Shown here: positions 28,578-43,498 of the stretch, in pieces
Numbering within the stretch: position 1 is the first letter of the stretch
Layout: the number at the start of each line of letters is the position of its first letter
Assembly (NCBI GenBank): GCA_002840245.1
Contig: PHAA01000028.1
Location: forward strand, 1 to 43,498
Reading direction: 5' to 3'
Source of the DNA: Firmicutes bacterium HGW-Firmicutes-15
GTDB taxonomy: Bacteria > Bacillota > Syntrophomonadia > Syntrophomonadales > Syntrophomonadaceae
Length of the DNA stretch: 43,498 nucleotides
Notes under the pieces: generated by a model
Told to the model about the DNA's origin: nothing
Database searches by the model: none
The model's input: the letters and a program-made list of their open reading frames with translations, nothing else
Position numbers and translations under genes: made by a program

Positions 28578-28669
28578 TCATTGCTATGTTGAGGGAATCA
28601 GCGTTGAAATAGTGGCAAGAAAGGTATATATTAGATTTGTATCCATGTGGTATAAAGGAGTATGATGCC

Positions 28670-29860
28670 TTGAAAATCGGAATCTTTACCGACAGTTACA
28701 AGCCCTACACCAGTGGGGTAGTGACTTCAATATCAAATTTCAAAGAAGAATTGACTCGTTTGGGCCATGAAATACACATCTTTGCCCCTAGTTATCCCAG
28801 TTATGATGAAATAGAAGAGAATGTGCATCGCTATTTTTCCCTTCCATCACCTTCCAACCCCGATTTCACACTGGCTATACCGATTTATCCAGGGATGGAC
28901 ACGATTGTAAAAAATCTGCAACTGGATATTGTTCATGTTCATTCACCGTTTACGATGGGCAGGGTAGGTTTGCGTTATGCCAAGAAGCTTAATATTCCAC
29001 TGCTTTTTACCTATCACACCCGTTACGATCAGTATGTGCATTATGTACCTTTGGCTCACGATTTGGCCAGGGAAGTTACTATTAAATATAGCAGCAATTT
29101 CTGTAACCATTGTAATCACATAATAACGCCTTCTTTTGAAATAGAATCAATAATTAGAGCTTTTAAGGTTAAAACGCCTATTTCCGTAATTCCCAGCGGG
29201 GTCCCTATCGATAAATATGAAGGTGGAGATGCGGGCTGGCTGCGTAAGCATTATTCTATACCTGCAAATAATCGAATTCTCCTCTTTGTGGGCAGGCTGA
29301 CTCAGGAAAAGAACATTCCATTTTTGATTCAGTCATTCAAAGAGGTAAAAGCCAGCCAGCCAGATACTACGCTGGTCATTATAGCACAGGGACCGTTAGA
29401 AGAAGAACTCAAGAACTTAGTAAAGTCATTAGGTCTATCTCTTAATGATGATGTTATATTTACCGGGGTTCTACCTTTCAGTTCTCTAGTAAATGCATAC
29501 TACTCCGCGGATTTGTTCGTCTTTTCTTCTCTTACCGAGACTCAGGGACTGGTGCTAATTGAAGCCATGGCAGCCGGGCTTCCGGTGGTGGCAGTAAGAG
29601 CCTCAGGGGTTCGAGAGATGGTGGATGATGGAATAGACGGACTTCTAACCGAATGCGATACTGGTGAACTAGCTGCCGGTATTCTCAGGGTCCTGAAGGA
29701 CGACAAACTTTACCACAGCTTACAAATTAATGCCAGGAAAAAGGCAGACCAATTATCTTCTCATAATATGGCACTAAAGCTGGAACAGGTTTATATGAAT
29801 ATGGTTTCAACCAATAAGGTTAATCCAGATAAAACACTAAATGTGAAACTAGGGATTTAA
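28670..29860 (+). CDS. GT4 family glycosyltransferase (diacylglycerol glucosyltransferase-like)
   Basis: The protein has about 396 residues from a TTG at 28670, 9 bp after AAGGAG; an in-frame ATG at 28637 lacks a site and would add an atypical N-terminus. The N-terminal LKIGIFTDSYKPYTSGVVTS is typical of GT4 enzymes that add glucose or galactose to diacylglycerol, as are HVHSPFTMGRVGLRYAKKLN and YHTRYDQYVHY. The GT-B donor site has LFVGRLTQEKNIPFLI, FVFSSLTETQGLVLIEAMAA and GLPVVAVRASGVREMV. It probably makes membrane glycolipids used as such or as lipoteichoic-acid anchors. It is followed by murT after one base, suggesting an envelope operon. The acceptor is inferred from resemblance only. 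Confidence 0.85.
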   Translation: MKIGIFTDSYKPYTSGVVTSISNFKEELTRLGHEIHIFAPSYPSYDEIEENVHRYFSLPSPSNPDFTLAIPIYPGMDTIVKNLQLDIVHVHSPFTMGRVGLRYAKKLNIPLLFTYHTRYDQYVHYVPLAHDLAREVTIKYSSNFCNHCNHIITPSFEIESIIRAFKVKTPISVIPSGVPIDKYEGGDAGWLRKHYSIPANNRILLFVGRLTQEKNIPFLIQSFKEVKASQPDTTLVIIAQGPLEEELKNLVKSLGLSLNDDVIFTGVLPFSSLVNAYYSADLFVFSSLTETQGLVLIEAMAAGLPVVAVRASGVREMVDDGIDGLLTECDTGELAAGILRVLKDDKLYHSLQINARKKADQLSSHNMALKLEQVYMNMVSTNKVNPDKTLNVKLGI

Positions 29861-29861
29861 T

Positions 29862-31259
29862 ATGCAGAATATTCGGAAGATAATGGCTATACTGGCGGGT
29901 AAACTGCTCATAGTCCTCAGTCGAATGGCCGGTAACCAGGGAACGAATTTTCCCGGCAGGCTAGCTCTTAAAATTTATCCTCCCCTGTTGAAGGAACTGG
30001 GTAAGAATACATATAAAGATACCTTCATCATTACTGGCACCAACGGTAAGACTACCACCACTAATATGATAGCCAGAATATTTAGGGAAAATGGCAGCAG
30101 CTTCATCCATAATCAAGCTGGGGCAAATATGCTTCCTGGTATTACTACAGCTTTCATCCAGCAGACTGATTTCACAGGCCGGAAGACTTTTGATTATGCT
30201 CTCCTAGAGACCGATGAGGCCAATGTGCCACTTCTGATTGCCCAGATTAAACCCCGCTTAATCCTGATCACTAATTTTTTTCGTGATCAGTTGGATAGGT
30301 ATGGTGAACTGGATACCACCATTAAGCTAATTAAGGAAGCGGTTCAGGGTACAGACATTGAATTGCTTTTAAATGCTGATGATCCTCTGCAGGTAGATTT
30401 CCAAAATCAAAAGGGTTTGAAATATTGGTATTATGGTTTCGATGCCAGCAATTATGATAGCTTTACCGGTGCCGAAAGCCGTGAGGGCAGGTATTGTGTT
30501 CTTTGCGGACATGAACTGGAATATACGCGCTACCATTATGCCCAGTTGGGAAAATACCATTGCCGGCACTGTAATAACCAGAATCCCCAGCCTAATTTCA
30601 TAGCTGCCGAATTGCTGATGGACCCCAGCATTCATTTACAAATTGACAAACTGCTTATAGAGAGTCCTTACCAGGGCTTTTATAATGCCTACAATATCCT
30701 GGCAGCAGTTTCGCTGGGCAAGCTGGCAGGAATACAGGAAAAGGTCATTCAAAAAGCGATAGCCAATTTTCAACCCAGTGCCGGTCGTATGGAGAACTTT
30801 CTAATACGAGGCAAAAAAGTCATTTTAGTTCTAGTGAAAAACCCTACTGGATTAAACCAGAGCCTGGCCATGTTAGCCCAGGATTCGGCTGCCAAAAACC
30901 TTTTTATCGCTCTTAACGACAATGCAGCTGATGGCCGGGATATAAGCTGGATATGGGATGCCGATATAGAGGTCATAACGGATGATAAAGCTCGAATCAG
31001 AAGGGTTATCTGTTCTGGGCAGCGCAGCGGAGATATGGCAGTGCGGATAAAATACAGCGGTTTTGGTATTGAAAACATTATAATCAAGCCATCTTTAGAA
31101 GAAGGCATAGGAATAGCAATCAGTATGGAGAGCGAAGTAAGCTACATACTCTGTACTTATACCACTCTTTTTGCCAGTCGCAACATCCTGGCCAGAATGC
31201 AAAAGAAATACCCCGCACCATTGCAGGAAAAAGAAAGAACACCGGAAAAGGCACTATAG
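29862..31259 (+). CDS. murT: Lipid II isoglutaminyl synthase, MurT subunit
   Basis: The protein has 465 residues, ATG at 29862. MurT with GatD amidates the alpha-carboxyl of D-Glu in lipid II to D-isoglutamine, using ATP and glutamine. The Mur-ligase P-loop is TGTNGKTTTTNMIARIF at about 59-75, followed by ETDEANVPLL and FFRDQLDRYGE. A Cys4 zinc ribbon is inserted near residues 212-237 (CVLCGHE and CRHC), a MurT hallmark. The C-terminal DUF1727 domain starts around IRGKKVILVLVKNPTGLNQSL. gatD lies downstream but is separated by a 186-bp spacer, whereas the pair is usually tightly linked. Confidence 0.95.
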   Translation: MQNIRKIMAILAGKLLIVLSRMAGNQGTNFPGRLALKIYPPLLKELGKNTYKDTFIITGTNGKTTTTNMIARIFRENGSSFIHNQAGANMLPGITTAFIQQTDFTGRKTFDYALLETDEANVPLLIAQIKPRLILITNFFRDQLDRYGELDTTIKLIKEAVQGTDIELLLNADDPLQVDFQNQKGLKYWYYGFDASNYDSFTGAESREGRYCVLCGHELEYTRYHYAQLGKYHCRHCNNQNPQPNFIAAELLMDPSIHLQIDKLLIESPYQGFYNAYNILAAVSLGKLAGIQEKVIQKAIANFQPSAGRMENFLIRGKKVILVLVKNPTGLNQSLAMLAQDSAAKNLFIALNDNAADGRDISWIWDADIEVITDDKARIRRVICSGQRSGDMAVRIKYSGFGIENIIIKPSLEEGIGIAISMESEVSYILCTYTTLFASRNILARMQKKYPAPLQEKERTPEKAL

Positions 31260-31273
31260 ACACAGACGACACA

Positions 31274-31339
31274 GCAACATTAATGGTGAGCGATAGCGAA
31301 CATCGGTGGTGCCCGTAGGGTGCAACATTAATGGTGAGC
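31274..31339 (+). repeat. Direct repeat in the murT-gatD spacer
   Basis: GCAACATTAATGGTGAGC occurs at 31274-31291 and again at 31322-31339 (48-bp period); both copies are followed by GCGAACA and, later, GTAGGGT. The 186-bp spacer (31260-31445) has no gene. Its left edge, TATAGACACAGACGACACAG, loosely resembles the end of the palindromic element at 26395. Confidence 0.6.
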
Positions 31340-31445
31340 AACGCGAACACCAGAGGTTCCCAAAGGGGGGAGTACCGGTAGGGTAACTTTTACGACTTGC
31401 GCACCTAGAGTCCCTGCACCTAAAGTCTAATCAGGTGGTGAAAGA

Positions 31446-32189
31446 ATGGAAAAATTTATTATTGCCCATATGTATCCGGCTCTGATGAACCTCTACGGCG
31501 ACCGAGGGAACTTGGTCTGCCTGAAGAAGAGGATGGAATGGTACGGACTGAATTGTGAGATAAAGAGCATACATCTAGATGAGAAACTAGATTTTAGCCA
31601 AATAGATATGATATTCATGGGAGGCGGTTCAGATCGCGAACAGGGACTGGTTTATCATGACCTCTTAAAGAAGACGGATCAACTAATGGCTCAAATTGAA
31701 AGCGGGCTTCCGGCCCTATGCATTTGCGGAGCCTATCAGTTGCTGGGAAGCTACTATAAATCTCATGAGGGCACAGTAATGGATGGATTAGGATTTTTCC
31801 CTTTATACACCGAAGGCCGCGAAGGCCGCCTAATAGGTAATATATTAATCGAAAGTGAATTCAATGGGCAGAAAGTCTCTGTGGTAGGCTTTGAAAACCA
31901 TGGAGGCAGGACCTATTTTTCCGACCCTAAGCTACAGAGCCTGGGGCAGGTAATCATAGGCCATGGAAATAATGGCGAAGATCAAAGCGAAGGCATGAGA
32001 TTCAAAAACCTAATAGGTACCTACCTGCATGGCCCACTACTCCCCAAAAACCCTACCTTAGCCGATTTCTTTGTCTATGCCATGGCTGACCGTAAAGGGC
32101 TTAAGCTAGAAAAAGTGCTGGATGATACGATTGAGAATTTGGCACATGAACAGGTTAGATATAAGATGATATCTGGACAAAAATCATAA
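31446..32189 (+). CDS. gatD: Lipid II isoglutaminyl synthase, glutamine amidotransferase subunit GatD
   Basis: The protein has 247 residues, ATG at 31446 after CAGGTGGTGAAAGA. A class I glutamine amidotransferase of the CobB/CobQ type supplies ammonia to MurT. The nucleophile C94 is in LCICGAYQLLG, and a C-terminal His (near 195, YLHGPLLPKNP) completes the expected pair; GGGSDREQG binds near the active site. The N-terminal IAHMYPALMNLYGDRGNLVC is diagnostic of GatD. It pairs functionally with murT upstream. Confidence 0.95.
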   Translation: MEKFIIAHMYPALMNLYGDRGNLVCLKKRMEWYGLNCEIKSIHLDEKLDFSQIDMIFMGGGSDREQGLVYHDLLKKTDQLMAQIESGLPALCICGAYQLLGSYYKSHEGTVMDGLGFFPLYTEGREGRLIGNILIESEFNGQKVSVVGFENHGGRTYFSDPKLQSLGQVIIGHGNNGEDQSEGMRFKNLIGTYLHGPLLPKNPTLADFFVYAMADRKGLKLEKVLDDTIENLAHEQVRYKMISGQKS

Positions 32190-32296: not shown

Positions 32297-34300
32297 TTGA
32301 AATTTACGCAGAGTATTAGATTTCAACTATTAGTATGGATACTGTTTGCTTGTTTCTTGGCTTCTGTAGGTCAGAGTGCTGTGTCCTATTTGAGTAGTAA
32401 GAGTATTCTTGATGTTGAAATTAAGAATGAATCCGAGAAGCTAGCTTTAGCTACCACCGCAGAAATCAATACCTGGGTTGAGGGGAATTATAAGGAACTT
32501 CAAACCATATCAAAATTAGAGGTCGTAAAAAAAATGGATGCGACCAAAATTCCAGGGACACTAGCCCCCCTTATGTCGCCTGAGAAGGATAATCTCTATG
32601 TAATTTGGCCGGATGGGACAACATATGGTGATACCGGTCAAATGAATTTTAACCTTAGTGACCGGGACTATTTCAAGATAGCCTTGGCAGGCAAAGCCAA
32701 TGTAAGCTCACCGGTTATTTCCAAGGCTAGTGGGAATGTAGTAGCACCAATAGTAGTTCCTATTATGCAGGGTGATAAGGTTGTCGGCGTCTTAGGTGCT
32801 ACAATTAAGGCGGAAAAACTTATAGAAATAGTAAATAAGGTTAAAACCGGGCAAACTGGCTATGCCTATATGATTGATAATGCTGGAACTATTGTAGCTC
32901 ATCCCAACAAGGAAAATATACTGAAGAAAAAGCTGTCAGAACTAGGAGCGGGCATGGAAGGTCCGCAGGCTAAAATGCTTACTATGCAAAGCGGAATCAT
33001 GGAATACCAACTGGACGGAGTTGCTAAATATATGGCATATGCTCCGGTTCAGACTACCGGCTGGTCACTGGGGGTAACCGTACCGATTAAAGAAGTAAAC
33101 CAGCCTCTGGACAAGTTGCTCCAAAATACTATGCTAGTTACTCTGGTTACCCTACTGCTATTATTTGGCATTATATGGTTTATAAGTGGTAAAATAACTA
33201 AACCGTTTGGGGAAATGACTGAAATAACCACCCGTCTTTCTCAGGGGGATCTTACGCAAAATATTTCCAGTAATAGCAGTTCTGAAATAGGCATATTAAT
33301 TAATTCTCTAGGACATATGAACGAAAGTCTTAAGGATAATTTCCGTAAGATCGCAGATAGTGCCCAAAATTTGAGCGCGGTCTCACAAAACCTCTTGGAT
33401 ACAGCAGAGCGGACAGGAAGAGCGGCTGAGCAGGTTAGTTTAAGCTCCGAGGAACTAGCTCTAGCGGCTGTGTCTCAGGCAGAGGATACCCAGAGAACTA
33501 GCGAATTGGCCAAACAAGTAGGTGATGCTATGCAGAGCGCGGGTAAAGGCACCGAAAATATTTCTCGCCAATCGAATAATTTCAAAGGAATAGTGAATAA
33601 TGTAACCCAGCTTATGTTGCAGCAAAAGGACAAGATGCATCATACAGTTAAAAGTGCTGGTAACGTATCAGAGGTAATATCAGAATTGAGTAACAAGACT
33701 AAACAAATAGGGGAAATAGTTACGTTAATAACTAATATTGCCAGTCAGACTAACTTGCTAGCTCTAAATGCAGCGATTGAGGCAGCGAGAGCCGGCGAGG
33801 CAGGACGGGGATTTGCAGTGGTGGCTGAAGAGGTTAGGAAACTTGCAGAGGAAACGGGTTCAGCTACCTTAAATATAGTCGCTATCATAGGAGAAGTTCA
33901 GGATCAGGTTAATCGCGTAGTGAGCGAAGTACACCAAGTAGAAGTGTTAGTGAAGGAACAAAGGGAATCATTAGGTGAGAGTGTATCTGCTTTCAAGGAG
34001 ATAGAGGGTGGAGCGCAAGGAATTGATCATTCCATCCAGGATATATCGGCTACCTTTAAAGAATTGCTGGGTTCAGTGGATAAAATACTTCAAGCCATGG
34101 AGAATATGTCAGCTGTTACCGAGGAATCAGCAGCATCTGCTGAAGAGGTAACAGCAGTTAGTCAGGATCAGTTAACAGCGGTTAATGATATGGTTGGTAT
34201 CAGCAAGGATTTGGGAAAGTTGTCCAAACAATTAAAGGATATAACAGATGGATTCAAACTTAATGAGAGGCGGCAAGAAGCTCGCAAAATTCTAAGTTAA
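32297..34300 (+). CDS. Methyl-accepting chemotaxis protein with dCache sensor
   Basis: The protein has 667 residues from a TTG at 32297 after TTGGAGG. TM1 is at about 8-28. An extracytoplasmic dCache domain (about 35-270) contains [20 protein letters not shown] and [10 protein letters not shown], then [20 protein letters not shown], the usual signature of PAS-like Cache domains that bind amino acids or carboxylates. TM2 is at about 277-297, followed by a HAMP domain and the cytoplasmic signalling hairpin with the conserved tip [20 protein letters not shown] and KLAEE. It sends chemotactic signals to CheA/CheW. The ligand is unknown. It is transcribed alone, between its own promoter and a terminator. 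Confidence 0.96.
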
Positions 34301-34435: not shown

Positions 34436-34515
34436 GGGGTTATTAATTAAAAAGTATATATTGTATCTAAGCGGGAAAGCTATTAGCAAAATGTACCATA
34501 AAGGGGTGGATAGCC

Positions 34516-35538
34516 ATTAACGCTGATACAAATACTCGTGCCTTATATCCTTTTCCTGATGAACTGATTCGCACTCGGATGAAAGAAGTATTAAGAGCAG
34601 ATAATCCAGGAATTGATAGCATAATAGATTACCTCACTGATAGTAGCGGAAAGATGATACGGCCTAGGATGGTATTTCTGACCGCATCCATGTCTGCCCA
34701 TGACCCACTTGTAGTCAGAGATGCAGCCGTAGCCGTCGAACTCATCCATTTAGCTTCTTTGGTACACGATGATATTATCGATCATGCCATGATGAGGCGG
34801 GGACGTGAGAGCATTAACAGGATCTGGGGGAATCACGCTAGTGTTCTGACGGGCGATTACTTATTTGCCAGCGCGTTCAATCTCATAAATATGCATGGTA
34901 TGCAGGATATAATGGAGAATGTCACCACGACTATCCGCATTATGTGTATCGGAGAAATTAAGCAAATGTCTCTGGTCGGTGATCTCAATGTTACGGAAGA
35001 TGAATATCTCGAGAAAACTTACGGTAAAACCGCTTGCTTGTTTGCATCTAGTTGTAAAGTGGGAGCACTGGCAGGGTCTATGCCTTCCGAGTCAGTCAAT
35101 GCCTTAGAACAATTTGGCCTCTGTCTCGGATATGCCTACCAGATACTAGACGACCTCTTGGACTTCCTTTCGGAAAGCAGTTTACTGGGCAAACCAGTTG
35201 GAAACGACCTTTTGGAGGGAAACATCACCCTTCCAGTGATTTATGCCCTGAAAAGCAAGGATTACGGAACCTGGTTGCGGTCGCTTCTAGAAAATCGTAA
35301 ATTGAATACTCACCAGATGGCTGAGGTGATCCAGATCCTAATTGACAGCAAAGCAGTAGAATATTCACTCCATTTGGCACGCCAGTTCATGACTAAGGGA
35401 ATATCCTGTCTAGATGTACTTCCAGTTAGTTCAGCTATTAAAGAACTTAGGCTAATGGCTAGTTATATGCTGGAAACCTATTACCAGAAGCTAAGTCATT
35501 ATGATTGTCCAAGCTCTCAAGAGGCAGCCCGGCTATGA
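34516..35538 (+). CDS. trans-Polyprenyl diphosphate synthase (heptaprenyl/hexaprenyl type)
   Basis: This synthase condenses isopentenyl diphosphate onto an allylic primer to make long prenyl diphosphates. The two Asp-rich motifs are LVHDDIIDHA (near residue 85) and YQILDDLLDF (near 212), with GKMIRPRM, RRGRESINRIWGN and TYGKTACLFA. The first ATG is 34579 but has no ribosome binding site and would cut the usual N-terminal helix. The frame stays open upstream and contains only ATT or ATA as possible starts; ATT at 34516 follows AAGGGGTGG by 9 bp, so I use it (340 residues). The stop overlaps the ytpB start as ATGA. The coupled partner suggests its product feeds a large-terpene synthase; a menaquinone side-chain role is the alternative. 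Confidence 0.88.
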   Translation: MNADTNTRALYPFPDELIRTRMKEVLRADNPGIDSIIDYLTDSSGKMIRPRMVFLTASMSAHDPLVVRDAAVAVELIHLASLVHDDIIDHAMMRRGRESINRIWGNHASVLTGDYLFASAFNLINMHGMQDIMENVTTTIRIMCIGEIKQMSLVGDLNVTEDEYLEKTYGKTACLFASSCKVGALAGSMPSESVNALEQFGLCLGYAYQILDDLLDFLSESSLLGKPVGNDLLEGNITLPVIYALKSKDYGTWLRSLLENRKLNTHQMAEVIQILIDSKAVEYSLHLARQFMTKGISCLDVLPVSSAIKELRLMASYMLETYYQKLSHYDCPSSQEAARL

Positions 35539-36641
35539 GTACCCTGGAAGTTAAAGCCGAGAAAAATCGAGCCGAAATATTATATAGCGCTAAAACAGGC
35601 TCCAGTCAGGTACGAATCCTGTTTCATTACATCATTTATACCCTGCCAAAGGTAAAAAGACTCTTGAAACACTGGGCAACAGTAGCATCTCAATGCGTGA
35701 ACGAGGAGCTGCGGGTGCAGGCCTTAAACAGTATCGCCGGCAAAGACTTTCACTGCCAGGGAGGAGCGGTATTTGCAGTTCCTTATTCGGAGAACGAAGA
35801 GCTTCTATTAAAGCTAATCGTTGCCTATCAAACCCTGTGTGACTACCTGGACAACCTCTGTGACCGAGCTAATTGCCTGGATGGAGTGGCTTTTCGCGAG
35901 CTGCATGAATCCCTTCTGGACGCCCTCACTCCTGGAGTTGAGGTGCACAATTATTATTTAAGTTATCCTTGCCAGGATGATGGGGGATATATTGCCAAGC
36001 TAGTAGAGGAATGTCGTCAATGCCTGGTGCAGATGCCCTCCTATAACGTGGTTTATCCCGATTTAATCCAACTGGCTCAAATATACATTGACCTTCAGGT
36101 AAAGAAACACATAGCTTGGGAACATAGAGAAAAGACCTTGATAGACTGGGCCAACTCACATCTTTCCGGGCATCCATCTATACTATGGAATGAGTTTGCC
36201 GCTGCCAGCGGCTCCACTTTGGCGCTGTTCGCGCTATTTGGATTAGCTACTCAGCGTAAAATAAGCCGCAGCGATAGCCAGATTATGGTACAGACCTATT
36301 TTCCCTGGATATGCGGCCTACATATCTTGTTGGATTACTTCATAGATCAGGAGGAAGACCGTGCAGGAGGCGACCTGAACTTTACCTTCTATTACTCCAA
36401 CCAGGAAGAAATGATGAATCGTTTAAAAATATTTATCCGCGAAGCACATACTAGAGCCAGCCAATTACCACATCCCGGTTTTGAGAAGACAGTAATAGAA
36501 GGCCTTTTAGCCATGTATTTTTCCGACAAAAAGGTTAAAAAACAAGGAATTCATAAGATGGCTAGAGAATTAATTAATGAATCAGGTCTCGGAGCCCGTA
36601 ATACCTACCACATATGTGCACTGGTGAGGAAAATAATTTAG
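35535..36641 (+). CDS. ytpB: YtpB-family (DUF2600) large-terpene synthase, tetraprenyl-beta-curcumene synthase-like
   Basis: The protein has 368 residues from the ATG at 35535, which overlaps the prenyl synthase stop (ATGA). In Bacillus YtpB cyclises heptaprenyl diphosphate (C35) to tetraprenyl-beta-curcumene, a precursor of sporulenes. Family traits are VRILFHYIIYTLPKVKRLLK, HFCHxGGAVF-like FHCQGGAVFAVPY, the Asp-rich YQTLCDYLDNLCDR near residues 97-110, and FIDQEEDRAGGDLNF near 270. Asp residues in the last two segments are likely metal ligands. Tight coupling to the prenyl synthase supports substrate supply. No YtpC-like sporulenol cyclase is in the window. The last ~165 bp recur as a decayed copy downstream. 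Confidence 0.85.
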   Translation: MSTLEVKAEKNRAEILYSAKTGSSQVRILFHYIIYTLPKVKRLLKHWATVASQCVNEELRVQALNSIAGKDFHCQGGAVFAVPYSENEELLLKLIVAYQTLCDYLDNLCDRANCLDGVAFRELHESLLDALTPGVEVHNYYLSYPCQDDGGYIAKLVEECRQCLVQMPSYNVVYPDLIQLAQIYIDLQVKKHIAWEHREKTLIDWANSHLSGHPSILWNEFAAASGSTLALFALFGLATQRKISRSDSQIMVQTYFPWICGLHILLDYFIDQEEDRAGGDLNFTFYYSNQEEMMNRLKIFIREAHTRASQLPHPGFEKTVIEGLLAMYFSDKKVKKQGIHKMARELINESGLGARNTYHICALVRKII

Positions 36642-36694: not shown

Positions 36695-37486
36695 ATGAAC
36701 GACGTAATAGATTACCAGATTTATGGAGACGACATGCAGATAGTGGAAATCGAGCTAGATCCAGGCGAAGGTGTACGGGCCGAAGCTGGTGCAATGATGT
36801 TTATGGAACAAGGCATAGAGATGCAGACCTCCACTGGAGGTGGAATTTTCAAAGGCTTCAAACGTGCTATCACCGGGGAAAGTTTTTTTATAACCACCTT
36901 TCTTAATAACGGTAACAGGAAGAGCAAGCTGGCCTTTGGGGCACCTTATCCAGGCAGTGTCATTGTTCTGGATCTAGCAAGACTGGGTGGCAAATTTATC
37001 TGTCAGAAAGATTCCTTCCTTTGTTCTGCTCGCGGGGTAGAAGTAGAAGTGGCATTTACTAAGCGTATTGGTGCCGGACTATTTGGTGGGGAAGGCTTTA
37101 TCTTGCAGAGATTGGAAGGTGATGGCTTAGCCTTCGTCCATGCTGGAGGAACACTGATAGAAAAAAATCTAGTTGCCGGAGAGACTCTGCGCGTTGACAC
37201 GGGTTGTCTGGCAGCTATGGCTACTACGGTCGATTACGATATTCAGTTTGTGGGCGGCTTTAAAAATTCCCTGTTTGGCGGAGAAGGGTTGTTCCTTGCC
37301 AAGCTGACCGGCCCAGGTTTAGTGTATCTGCAGAGCCTGCCCCTTTCTCGTCTGGCTGACCGAATCGTAGCTGCATCCCGCTTCGGCAGTAATAGAGAGG
37401 AAAGTAGAGGTCTCGGTGGTATTGGTGGAGCTGTGCTGGGTGCAGGATTACTGGGCAGCTTTCTAGGAGGCGGGGATGGCGATTAG
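36695..37486 (+). CDS. AIM24/TIGR00266 family protein
   Basis: The protein has 263 residues, ATG at 36695 after GGGGGAGATAATAG. The family is a beta-rich trypsin-inhibitor/tubby-like fold of unknown function, related to mitochondrial Aim24. Landmarks are the [20 protein letters not shown] start, [40 protein letters not shown] and the second [21 protein letters not shown] Gly-rich tail ([19 protein letters not shown]) could insert in a membrane. It lies 54 bp after ytpB in the same direction and ends at a terminator, so the three genes may form one transcript; a link to terpenoids or membrane is inference. Confidence 0.9.
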
Positions 37487-37512: not shown

Positions 37513-37550
37513 AAACCCCTGGAACTGGTTGACGACCAGTCCGGGGGTTT
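37513..37550 (+). terminator. Intrinsic terminator after the AIM24 gene
   Basis: AAACCCC...ACTGGT, loop TGACG, ACCAGT...GGGGTTT forms a two-part stem. The downstream ATCGTTTTCT is moderately T-rich. Confidence 0.75.
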
Positions 37551-37655
37551 ATCGTTTTCTTCTAAAGAACAGAACTGCGAGAAAAATAACCCGCACCGGT
37601 GTCGCTGATAAAAAGGTGATTTTGGTCGTATGCATTTCTCGCGTTCTATCGGATA

Positions 37656-37820
37656 CCGGCTTTGAGAAAACAGTCATAGAAAGCCTTTTGGCCATGTATT
37701 TTTCCGACAAATAAGTTAAAAAACAAGGAATTCATAGGATGGCTAGAGCATTAATAAATGAATCAGGTATAGGGCCCGTACTACTTATCACATATGTTCA
37801 CTGGTACGAATAATTATATA
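37656..37820 (+). pseudogene. Decayed duplicate of the ytpB 3' end
   Basis: About 165 bp repeat the last part of ytpB (36475-36640) at an offset of about 1181 bp. Both contain GCCATGTATTTTTCCGACAA and GTTAAAAAACAAGGAATTCA. The copy has an in-frame TAA in place of a Lys codon after FSDK, plus small indels near its end, so it cannot encode the tail. Upstream it runs into unrelated sequence that still reads open back to 37529. The rest of 37551-37909 shows no gene other than a TATATAAT box (37855-37860) before the next gene. Confidence 0.88.
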
Positions 37821-41952: not shown

Positions 41953-43498
41953 CTATGGAGTAGTTGAGCTGGCAGCTTTAGCCACATTGGGCTGTACTTG
42001 TATAATCTGAGTAGCACCGTCGTAGCTGACTTCTGAGTTTAAACTTTTCCCGACGAATGCCAAAGGCACTACTGTACGGCTGTTCACGATTTTTGCAGGG
42101 ACATCGAGAGTAACCTCTTTACCATCAACTTTGGCTAAATTACTACCGATAGTCATTTCCACCGTTTTCCCATCGCGGAGCATAGTTACAGTTTGGGTGT
42201 TTGCTTCATACTTAACCTGTGCTCCCATTGACTCTGCAATTGCCTTGAAAGGCACTAAGGTTCTGCCCTCTTCTATAAAGGGCTGGGTATCAAAACTCGG
42301 CTTTACCCCATTCACAAAGACCTTGGGACCATCGATGCCAGCTTTTTGATATAATTCACCAGCTTTATCGTACAGTGCTGTATTATTTGGTGCCATAGCG
42401 ATAGCTTTCTCAATATTCTGTACCGCCGCTGCATTATTCCCGGCCTTGGCAGCCATATTGGCTGTATAGGTACTCACAAGAGCGTCGGGATGTTCTTTTA
42501 ATTGAGAATTTAATACTGCAGCTGCTTCAGAAAATTTGCCTTCCTTTTCCAAATTTCTGGCCTCAACTAGGATCGTATTTCCCGGAGCACCTACTGAGGC
42601 ATCAGTCAGAAAATCACCTAGGTTATCCAATGTTGCTTTATCGGCTGCTTTTTGATCAGTGCCTCCAGCCTTGGCTTCAAGCATGGCTTTGTAAACATTA
42701 GGTGGGGCACCGGGTATATTGGCAAATGGTGCCTTCGGATCACTTAAAACTTCTGCTGCCTCTTTGTATTTGCCTTGAGCCTCCAGGGCTTGAGCCTTAG
42801 CAATCCAATCATGCCCCGGTTGCCCTGTTGAAGCTTGTTTTAGAAAATCTCCAAAACCGGTCTGACTTTTGTTATCAAAGATTATACCTGCACCAGGAGC
42901 AGATTGATATGGCTGAGACATTGGGCCAAACTTACCTGGGTTAAGACCTTTCATGAGCTCCTGGGTTTGCAGGTCCATGGTCTTCTCGCCTTTTAGGACT
43001 TGGCCAAATTGGGCAGATGTCATGTTAGCAGGTAAATTAACCCCAAACTTGTTAGCATCAAAGTTATCGGCTACTTTATCAAGGGTTATTCCATCCGGAA
43101 TCTTAACCAGGGTGCCGGGAATAAATGCTGGCGCACCAAAACCGCCACCAGCGGCTCCGCCTGAACCCATCTGACCACCAGGAGCACCGGCACCAGTGCC
43201 GCCTGGGAATTGGCCACCGGTTGCACCACCGCCGGGGAACTGCCCGCCGGTAGCACCACTACCAGGGAATTGGCCTCCTGAAGCACCGGGCATACTGCTT
43301 CCCAAGCCCTGAATACCCCCACTGAATACGGATGATCCTCCAAATACTCCCTGTGGGGGAGAAGAAGACATACCAGTACCGCCAGGCATACTACCGCCAG
43401 GCATAGTACCACCAGGCATACTACCACCAGGCATACTACCACCACCAGGCATACTACCACCACCAGGCATACTACCACCGCCAGGCATACTACCACCG
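41953..43498 (-). CDS. Low-complexity Gly-rich protein with TPR-like and copper-amine-oxidase-N-like domains (5' end outside window)
   Basis: At least 514 residues are visible; the frame is still open at the window edge, so the true N-terminus and any signal peptide are not seen. The visible part starts with MPGGGS/MPGGS/MPGGT repeats, then three GGQFPG decapeptide repeats and a Gly/Ala-rich stretch. A middle part has TPR-like helices (WIAKAQALEAQGKYKEAAEV; VEARNLEKEGKFSEAAAVLN; AVQNIEKAIAMAPNNTALYD). The C-terminal ~110 residues match the Cu_amine_oxidN1-type domain (VFVNGVKPSFDTQPFIEEGR, TLVPFKAIAESMGAQVKYEA, IVNSRTVVPLAFVGKSL), common in secreted Clostridial proteins. It is likely an extracellular or wall-associated protein; function unknown. 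Confidence 0.8.
   Translation of the reverse strand, partial: GGSMPGGGSMPGGGSMPGGGSMPGGSMPGGTMPGGSMPGGTGMSSSPPQGVFGGSSVFSGGIQGLGSSMPGASGGQFPGSGATGGQFPGGGATGGQFPGGTGAGAPGGQMGSGGAAGGGFGAPAFIPGTLVKIPDGITLDKVADNFDANKFGVNLPANMTSAQFGQVLKGEKTMDLQTQELMKGLNPGKFGPMSQPYQSAPGAGIIFDNKSQTGFGDFLKQASTGQPGHDWIAKAQALEAQGKYKEAAEVLSDPKAPFANIPGAPPNVYKAMLEAKAGGTDQKAADKATLDNLGDFLTDASVGAPGNTILVEARNLEKEGKFSEAAAVLNSQLKEHPDALVSTYTANMAAKAGNNAAAVQNIEKAIAMAPNNTALYDKAGELYQKAGIDGPKVFVNGVKPSFDTQPFIEEGRTLVPFKAIAESMGAQVKYEANTQTVTMLRDGKTVEMTIGSNLAKVDGKEVTLDVPAKIVNSRTVVPLAFVGKSLNSEVSYDGATQIIQVQPNVAKAASSTTP
43197..43287 (-). repeat. Tandem ~30-bp repeats encoding GGQFPGxGAT
   Basis: Three consecutive ten-residue units (GQFPGSGATG, GQFPGGGATG, GQFPGGTGAG) lie inside the same gene, with DNA-level similarity between units. 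Confidence 0.8.
43375..43498 (-). repeat. Tandem 15/18-bp repeats encoding MPGG(G)S/T
   Basis: Units of ATGCCTGGYGGTGGTAGT (18 bp) and shorter 15-bp forms repeat in frame, at least seven times, and continue beyond the window. Codon use is almost identical between units, which points to slippage or recent expansion. Confidence 0.92.

Follow-up and report, generated by a model that had tools for sequence, protein, structure and literature searches.

Introduction

The locus studied here raises the question of whether a prenyl diphosphate synthase and a large-terpene synthase encoded by overlapping genes form a pathway of their own, and what such a pathway would produce. Large terpenes of the non-squalene type have been described from a few aerobic bacilli. 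The present pair lies in Firmicutes bacterium HGW-Firmicutes-15 (order Syntrophomonadales), within a stretch of 43,498 nucleotides (contig PHAA01000028.1 of assembly GCA_002840245.1) that was analysed as a whole and is called the window below. Among openly licensed papers we found no report of this pairing in anaerobes, and a survey of sporulene genes cited in PMC13123705 is limited to the class Bacilli.

Results

The gene pair and its surroundings

The two coupled genes proposed in a first-pass annotation of the window were both recovered, the stop of the first and the start of the second sharing the letters ATGA (Table 1). ATT, and not the first ATG, is probably the start codon of the prenyl synthase, because the Shine-Dalgarno-like AAAGGGGTGG precedes it, no in-frame ATG, GTG or TTG is present upstream, a relative (G035, locus L040) carries a stop three codons 5' of the aligned ATT, and the N-terminal YPFP segment, which is lost if the internal ATG is used, is found in relatives with ordinary starts. 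AUU start codons are very rare; this putative one (34516-34518), with its good ribosome site, is conserved in G035.

Table 1 Features of the locus, in window coordinates
Feature	Position	Strand	Basis or remark
GT4 glycosyltransferase, MurT and GatD, the upstream part of the neighbourhood at family level	28637..32189	+	
Methyl-accepting chemotaxis gene between GatD and the pair	32297..34300	+	
Shine-Dalgarno-like AAAGGGGTGG	34500..34509	+	Precedes the ATT start; read from the sequence
Long-chain all-E prenyl diphosphate synthase, probable ATT start	34516..35538	+	PF00348, HepT match 9kp1_B, clade
Internal ATG of the prenyl synthase, alternative start	34579	+	Sequence
First Asp-rich motif of the prenyl synthase, DDIID	34768..34782	+	A,S at -5,-4, long-chain type
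Second Asp-rich motif of the prenyl synthase, DDLLD	35149..35163	+	Sequence
ATGA overlap, synthase stop and terpene synthase start	35535..35538	+	Sequence
Stop TGA of the prenyl synthase	35536-35538	+	Sequence
Class IB large-terpene synthase (YtpB/BalTS family, DUF2600), ATG 35535-35537	35535..36641	+	PF10776, 5YO8/6LOO/6LOP
Terpene synthase catalytic motif DYLDNLCD	35841..35864	+	Fits DYLDNLxD (PMC7839719)
Terpene synthase catalytic motif DYFIDQEED	36333..36359	+	Fits DY(F,L,W)IDxxED (PMC7839719)
AIM24/TIGR00266 gene, facultative neighbour	36695..37486	+	Pfam AIM24, E 7.3e-75
Hairpin and T-rich tail 3' of AIM24, likely terminator	37513..37552	+	By eye
Decayed 3'-terminal copy of the terpene synthase gene, with one stop and one frameshift	37653..37820	+	Sequence comparison

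The chemoreceptor gene that separates GatD from the pair was not found at this place in the relatives examined, where GatD closely precedes the pair. Beyond AIM24, the decayed copy is about 88% identical to the 3' end of the terpene synthase gene, with one stop and one frameshift; it is equally close to the gene of a relative (G033), in which no copy was seen at that place. At 41953-43497 the window encodes a protein with an N-terminal MPGGGS-type repeat, whose C-terminal part resembles by eye a copper amine oxidase N domain; a long open frame overlaps this gene on the same strand.

Two enzymes with intact catalytic motifs

The prenyl synthase matches the Pfam polyprenyl synthetase profile (PF00348, E 2.4e-68), and its best match in the PDB is HepT (9kp1_B, E 1.6e-54). 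Neither DDxxD motif is disrupted. Residues A and S stand at positions -5 and -4 before the first, as in HepT, which fits a long-chain product; small residues at these positions, also present in IspB, occur in 28/28 tail-to-tail and 34/36 co-directional synthases. Profile, motifs and small residues together place the enzyme among the long-chain all-E prenyl diphosphate synthases.

The second protein matches PF10776 (DUF2600) from position 1 to 328 of its 328 positions (E 1.4e-132). Its only sequence match in the PDB is the tetraprenyl-beta-curcumene synthase BalTS (5YO8, 6LOO, 6LOP; E 5.9e-89), to which it is homologous over nearly its whole length, with both Asp-rich motifs shared. It thus belongs to the class IB large-terpene synthases of the YtpB/BalTS type, whose subclass signatures are DYLDNLxD and DY(F,L,W)IDxxED (PMC7839719). 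In 14 aligned homologues the first motif, DYLDNLCD, is identical and the second retains its core. Given these intact motifs, the terpene synthase is very likely to be active as an enzyme, and the predicted folds of both proteins are settled through homology to solved structures.

The annotation had described the pair as a synthase matched to its cyclase. The pairing of the two enzymes stands, but the label of cyclase is not established, since the YtpB homologue of B. clausii yields acyclic C25 and C30 products; an all-E synthase of that species makes GFPP, HexPP and HepPP (both cited in PMC9230978). By analogy, the product here would be linear or monocyclic, with a chain length of C25-C35 expected from the enzymes of B. 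clausii and B. subtilis.

Conservation of the pair in the order and the phylum

DUF2600 was found in 41/63 genomes of the order. At every one of the 34 loci in these genomes whose sequence covers the upstream side, distributed over three families, the directly preceding gene on the same strand encodes a prenyl synthase. Overlaps of 4 nt or 1 nt also occur at loci L035-L040, L055, L058 and L067, their exact lengths being approximate as gene calls in relatives are mechanical open reading frames; several relatives are incomplete metagenome-assembled genomes.

The wider neighbourhood differs between families: GT4, MurT and GatD precede the pair in family f1 and are missing at the loci of f2 and f3, and therefore the pair itself is the conserved unit. 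The recurrent order MurT-GatD-synthase-terpene synthase in f1 could suggest that the pair, together with MurT-GatD, has a part in lipid-carrier or cell-wall homeostasis, the terpene synthase being mainly a sink for long prenyl diphosphates; indeed, the bacitracin phenotype of B. subtilis ytpB stems from accumulation of the substrate and not from loss of the product (PMC8144471). We regard this reading as unlikely, however, as a dedicated synthase that makes a substrate merely for its removal would be futile, and the pair is kept without MurT-GatD in two families.

AIM24 had been suggested as a possible part of the pathway. Of the 41 order genomes with a terpene synthase gene, 15 carry AIM24 within a few kb of it, more than expected by chance, and several nearly complete ones lack AIM24; this patchy occurrence led us to reject it as an obligatory third gene. 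In one genome of f3 (G062, L048:8240-8920), the gene after the pair encodes an ICMT/PEMT-like methyltransferase that might act in tailoring; it was seen once.

Across the phylum we examined 249 genomes, at least 90% complete and drawn evenly. DUF2600 was present in 95 of them (about 38%), so that occurrence in an anaerobe, which the annotation had pointed out, is not unusual. At 40 sampled loci, mostly one per family, a prenyl synthase gene is adjacent or one gene off in 26, with 24 tail-to-tail and 2 co-directional arrangements; at least 13 have no adjacent synthase, and none adjoins the terpene synthase gene at the Paenibacillus, Cohnella and Brevibacillus loci. In one genome (G293) the terpene synthase is embedded in an open frame of 4496 aa, which is an artefact of masked N runs. 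Because adjacency recurs in 34/34 order loci and 26/40 phylum loci, it is not due to chance. Adjacency is general in the phylum, and, with 24 of the 26 linked phylum loci tail-to-tail, the co-directional coupled form is typical of Syntrophomonadales.

A synthase distinct from the menaquinone enzyme

Three strong PF00348 genes are present in the genome. One (contig C84) is preceded by an exonuclease VII gene, the usual setting of IspA, and this gene is presumably IspA. Another (contig C57) is accompanied by a HepS-like gene, UbiD, UbiA, UbiX and TatC. The third is that of the window, and HepT is its best single match in both the PDB and NCBIfam. It might thus be the menaquinone-type prenyl synthase of the cell, with the terpene synthase draining a shared C35 pool as in B. 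subtilis, but several results make this highly improbable. Against the solved HepT 9kp1_B, the C57 synthase reaches 277 bits and the window synthase 189 bits. The window synthase moreover scores only 252 bits with TIGR02748 (menaquinone HepT), for which the curated cut-off is 457. In a tree of 62 synthases, computed by a quick method without bootstraps, all 34 terpene-synthase-linked sequences fall together in a single clade (SH-aLRT 96); synthases of quinone loci cluster with HepT (SH-aLRT 97). None of the tree-placed synthases from twelve genomes without terpene synthase falls in the linked clade. In a broader tree, none of the phylum-wide linked synthases lies inside the HepT clade, and the tail-to-tail ones form several weakly placed groups.

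The annotation had itself proposed that its reading would fall if the window held the only menaquinone-type synthase of the genome and no terpene were detected; a separate HepT-type synthase exists at a menaquinone-type locus, and the reading is therefore not refuted on this count. Because this higher-scoring HepT is encoded beside UbiA, UbiD and UbiX, and the window synthase falls in its own clade, the latter is judged not to be the menaquinone enzyme, although it belongs to the same superfamily and shares the long-chain motif. No HepS-like partner adjoins it; the enzyme could need the HepS-like subunit encoded on C57, or act alone.

Search for a second cyclase

In B. subtilis a second cyclase, SqhC, follows YtpB. 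A search of the genome with PF13249 gave no match at E <= 0.001, PF00494 (squalene/phytoene synthase) gave none, and a full-length YtpC/SqhC-type (squalene-hopene-type) cyclase was not found with PF13249 and PF13243, so that the genome does not conform to the sporulene route of Bacillus. This search for squalene-hopene cyclase homologues bore out the annotation, which had seen no YtpC-like enzyme. The single PF13243 match of the genome (contig C20) is a protein of 515 aa that combines one toroid region with SLH domains.

The alternative to be weighed here is that the sporulene pathway is complete as in Bacillus, its second cyclase, for example this SLH protein, having gone unrecognised. In favour of the protein are its matches to PF13243 (E 1e-13), PF00432 and PF13249 and a DSDDT stretch that resembles the DxDD motif of class II cyclases. 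It is, however, short, has an apparent signal peptide and SLH repeats, and is encoded next to an ECF-like transporter; furthermore, similar weak matches occur in genomes without terpene synthase and are absent from several that have it. We therefore rejected this one-toroid protein as the missing full-length cyclase and consider such a pathway very unlikely. Class II cyclisation could in principle be carried out by a protein outside PF13243 and PF13249. The SLH protein (L080:2610-4154) is apparently secreted, its transporter neighbour was recognised by eye, and similar matches recur in the order.

In the phylum sample, a strong full-length squalene-hopene cyclase is restricted to 4 genomes, all among the 95 with DUF2600. 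They belong to two families (f22 and f73) whose sampled loci have no adjacent synthase, which suggests two configurations: an unlinked terpene synthase with SqhC, as in Bacillus, versus a linked synthase without SqhC.

Association with sporulation

SpoIVA is present in 92/95 phylum genomes with DUF2600 versus 123/154 without (Fisher p 9e-5, relatedness being ignored). These counts are compatible with a role of the pair in the spore and do not show one, the link being weak because sporulation genes are common throughout the phylum. The same association was tried inside the order, where 34/35 good genomes have SpoIVA and there is no contrast.

Discussion

In B. subtilis, a spore-former, YtpB belongs to the same class IB terpene synthase family as the enzyme reported here and likewise acts on a long all-E prenyl diphosphate; it draws, however, on the shared menaquinone HepS/HepT pool and is followed by SqhC, whereas our genome has a dedicated linked synthase and SqhC was not found. 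The B. clausii enzymes cited in PMC9230978 offer a precedent, in that an all-E synthase feeds a large-terpene synthase and acyclic products are possible. Gene overlap and order-wide conservation are features of the pair described here; the comparison with B. clausii is one of enzymes and not of gene order.

On the sequence evidence, we consider it likely that the two genes encode a dedicated pathway of two enzymes, which would end with a C25-C35 prene or monocyclic terpene. IspA would supply FPP, and the first enzyme would extend it with IPP to an all-E prenyl diphosphate of long chain, about C25-C35. The class IB terpene synthase would then ionise this substrate, with loss of diphosphate, and release a linear beta-prene or a monocyclic terpene resembling tetraprenyl-beta-curcumene, translational coupling through ATGA presumably matching the two activities. 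Because the genome lacks a recognised squalene-hopene-type cyclase, the hydrocarbon would be the end product, and is itself probably a lipid of the envelope or the spore. In spsA-L mutants of B. subtilis, curcumene itself, and not sporulene, makes the spores hydrophobic (PMC11708026).

More tentatively, and with somewhat under an even chance in our estimation, the cassette without cyclase could represent an ancient, phylum-wide pathway of spore-forming anaerobes to an undescribed C25-C35 head-to-tail terpene of the spore or envelope, from which the Bacillus sporulene route, with its unlinked gene and added SqhC, would be derived.

The linked pairs offer enzymes for direct matching of substrates and products in vitro. 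In a mostly spore-forming phylum, the terpene synthase is common, often lies beside its own synthase and is almost always without the sporulene cyclase, a tally that predicts a widespread class of lipids, still uncharted, which may serve as a biomarker of spore-forming anaerobes. The occurrence of the pair in many spore-forming Bacillota, nearly always without the second cyclase of Bacillus, suggests a widespread lipid pathway in these bacteria.
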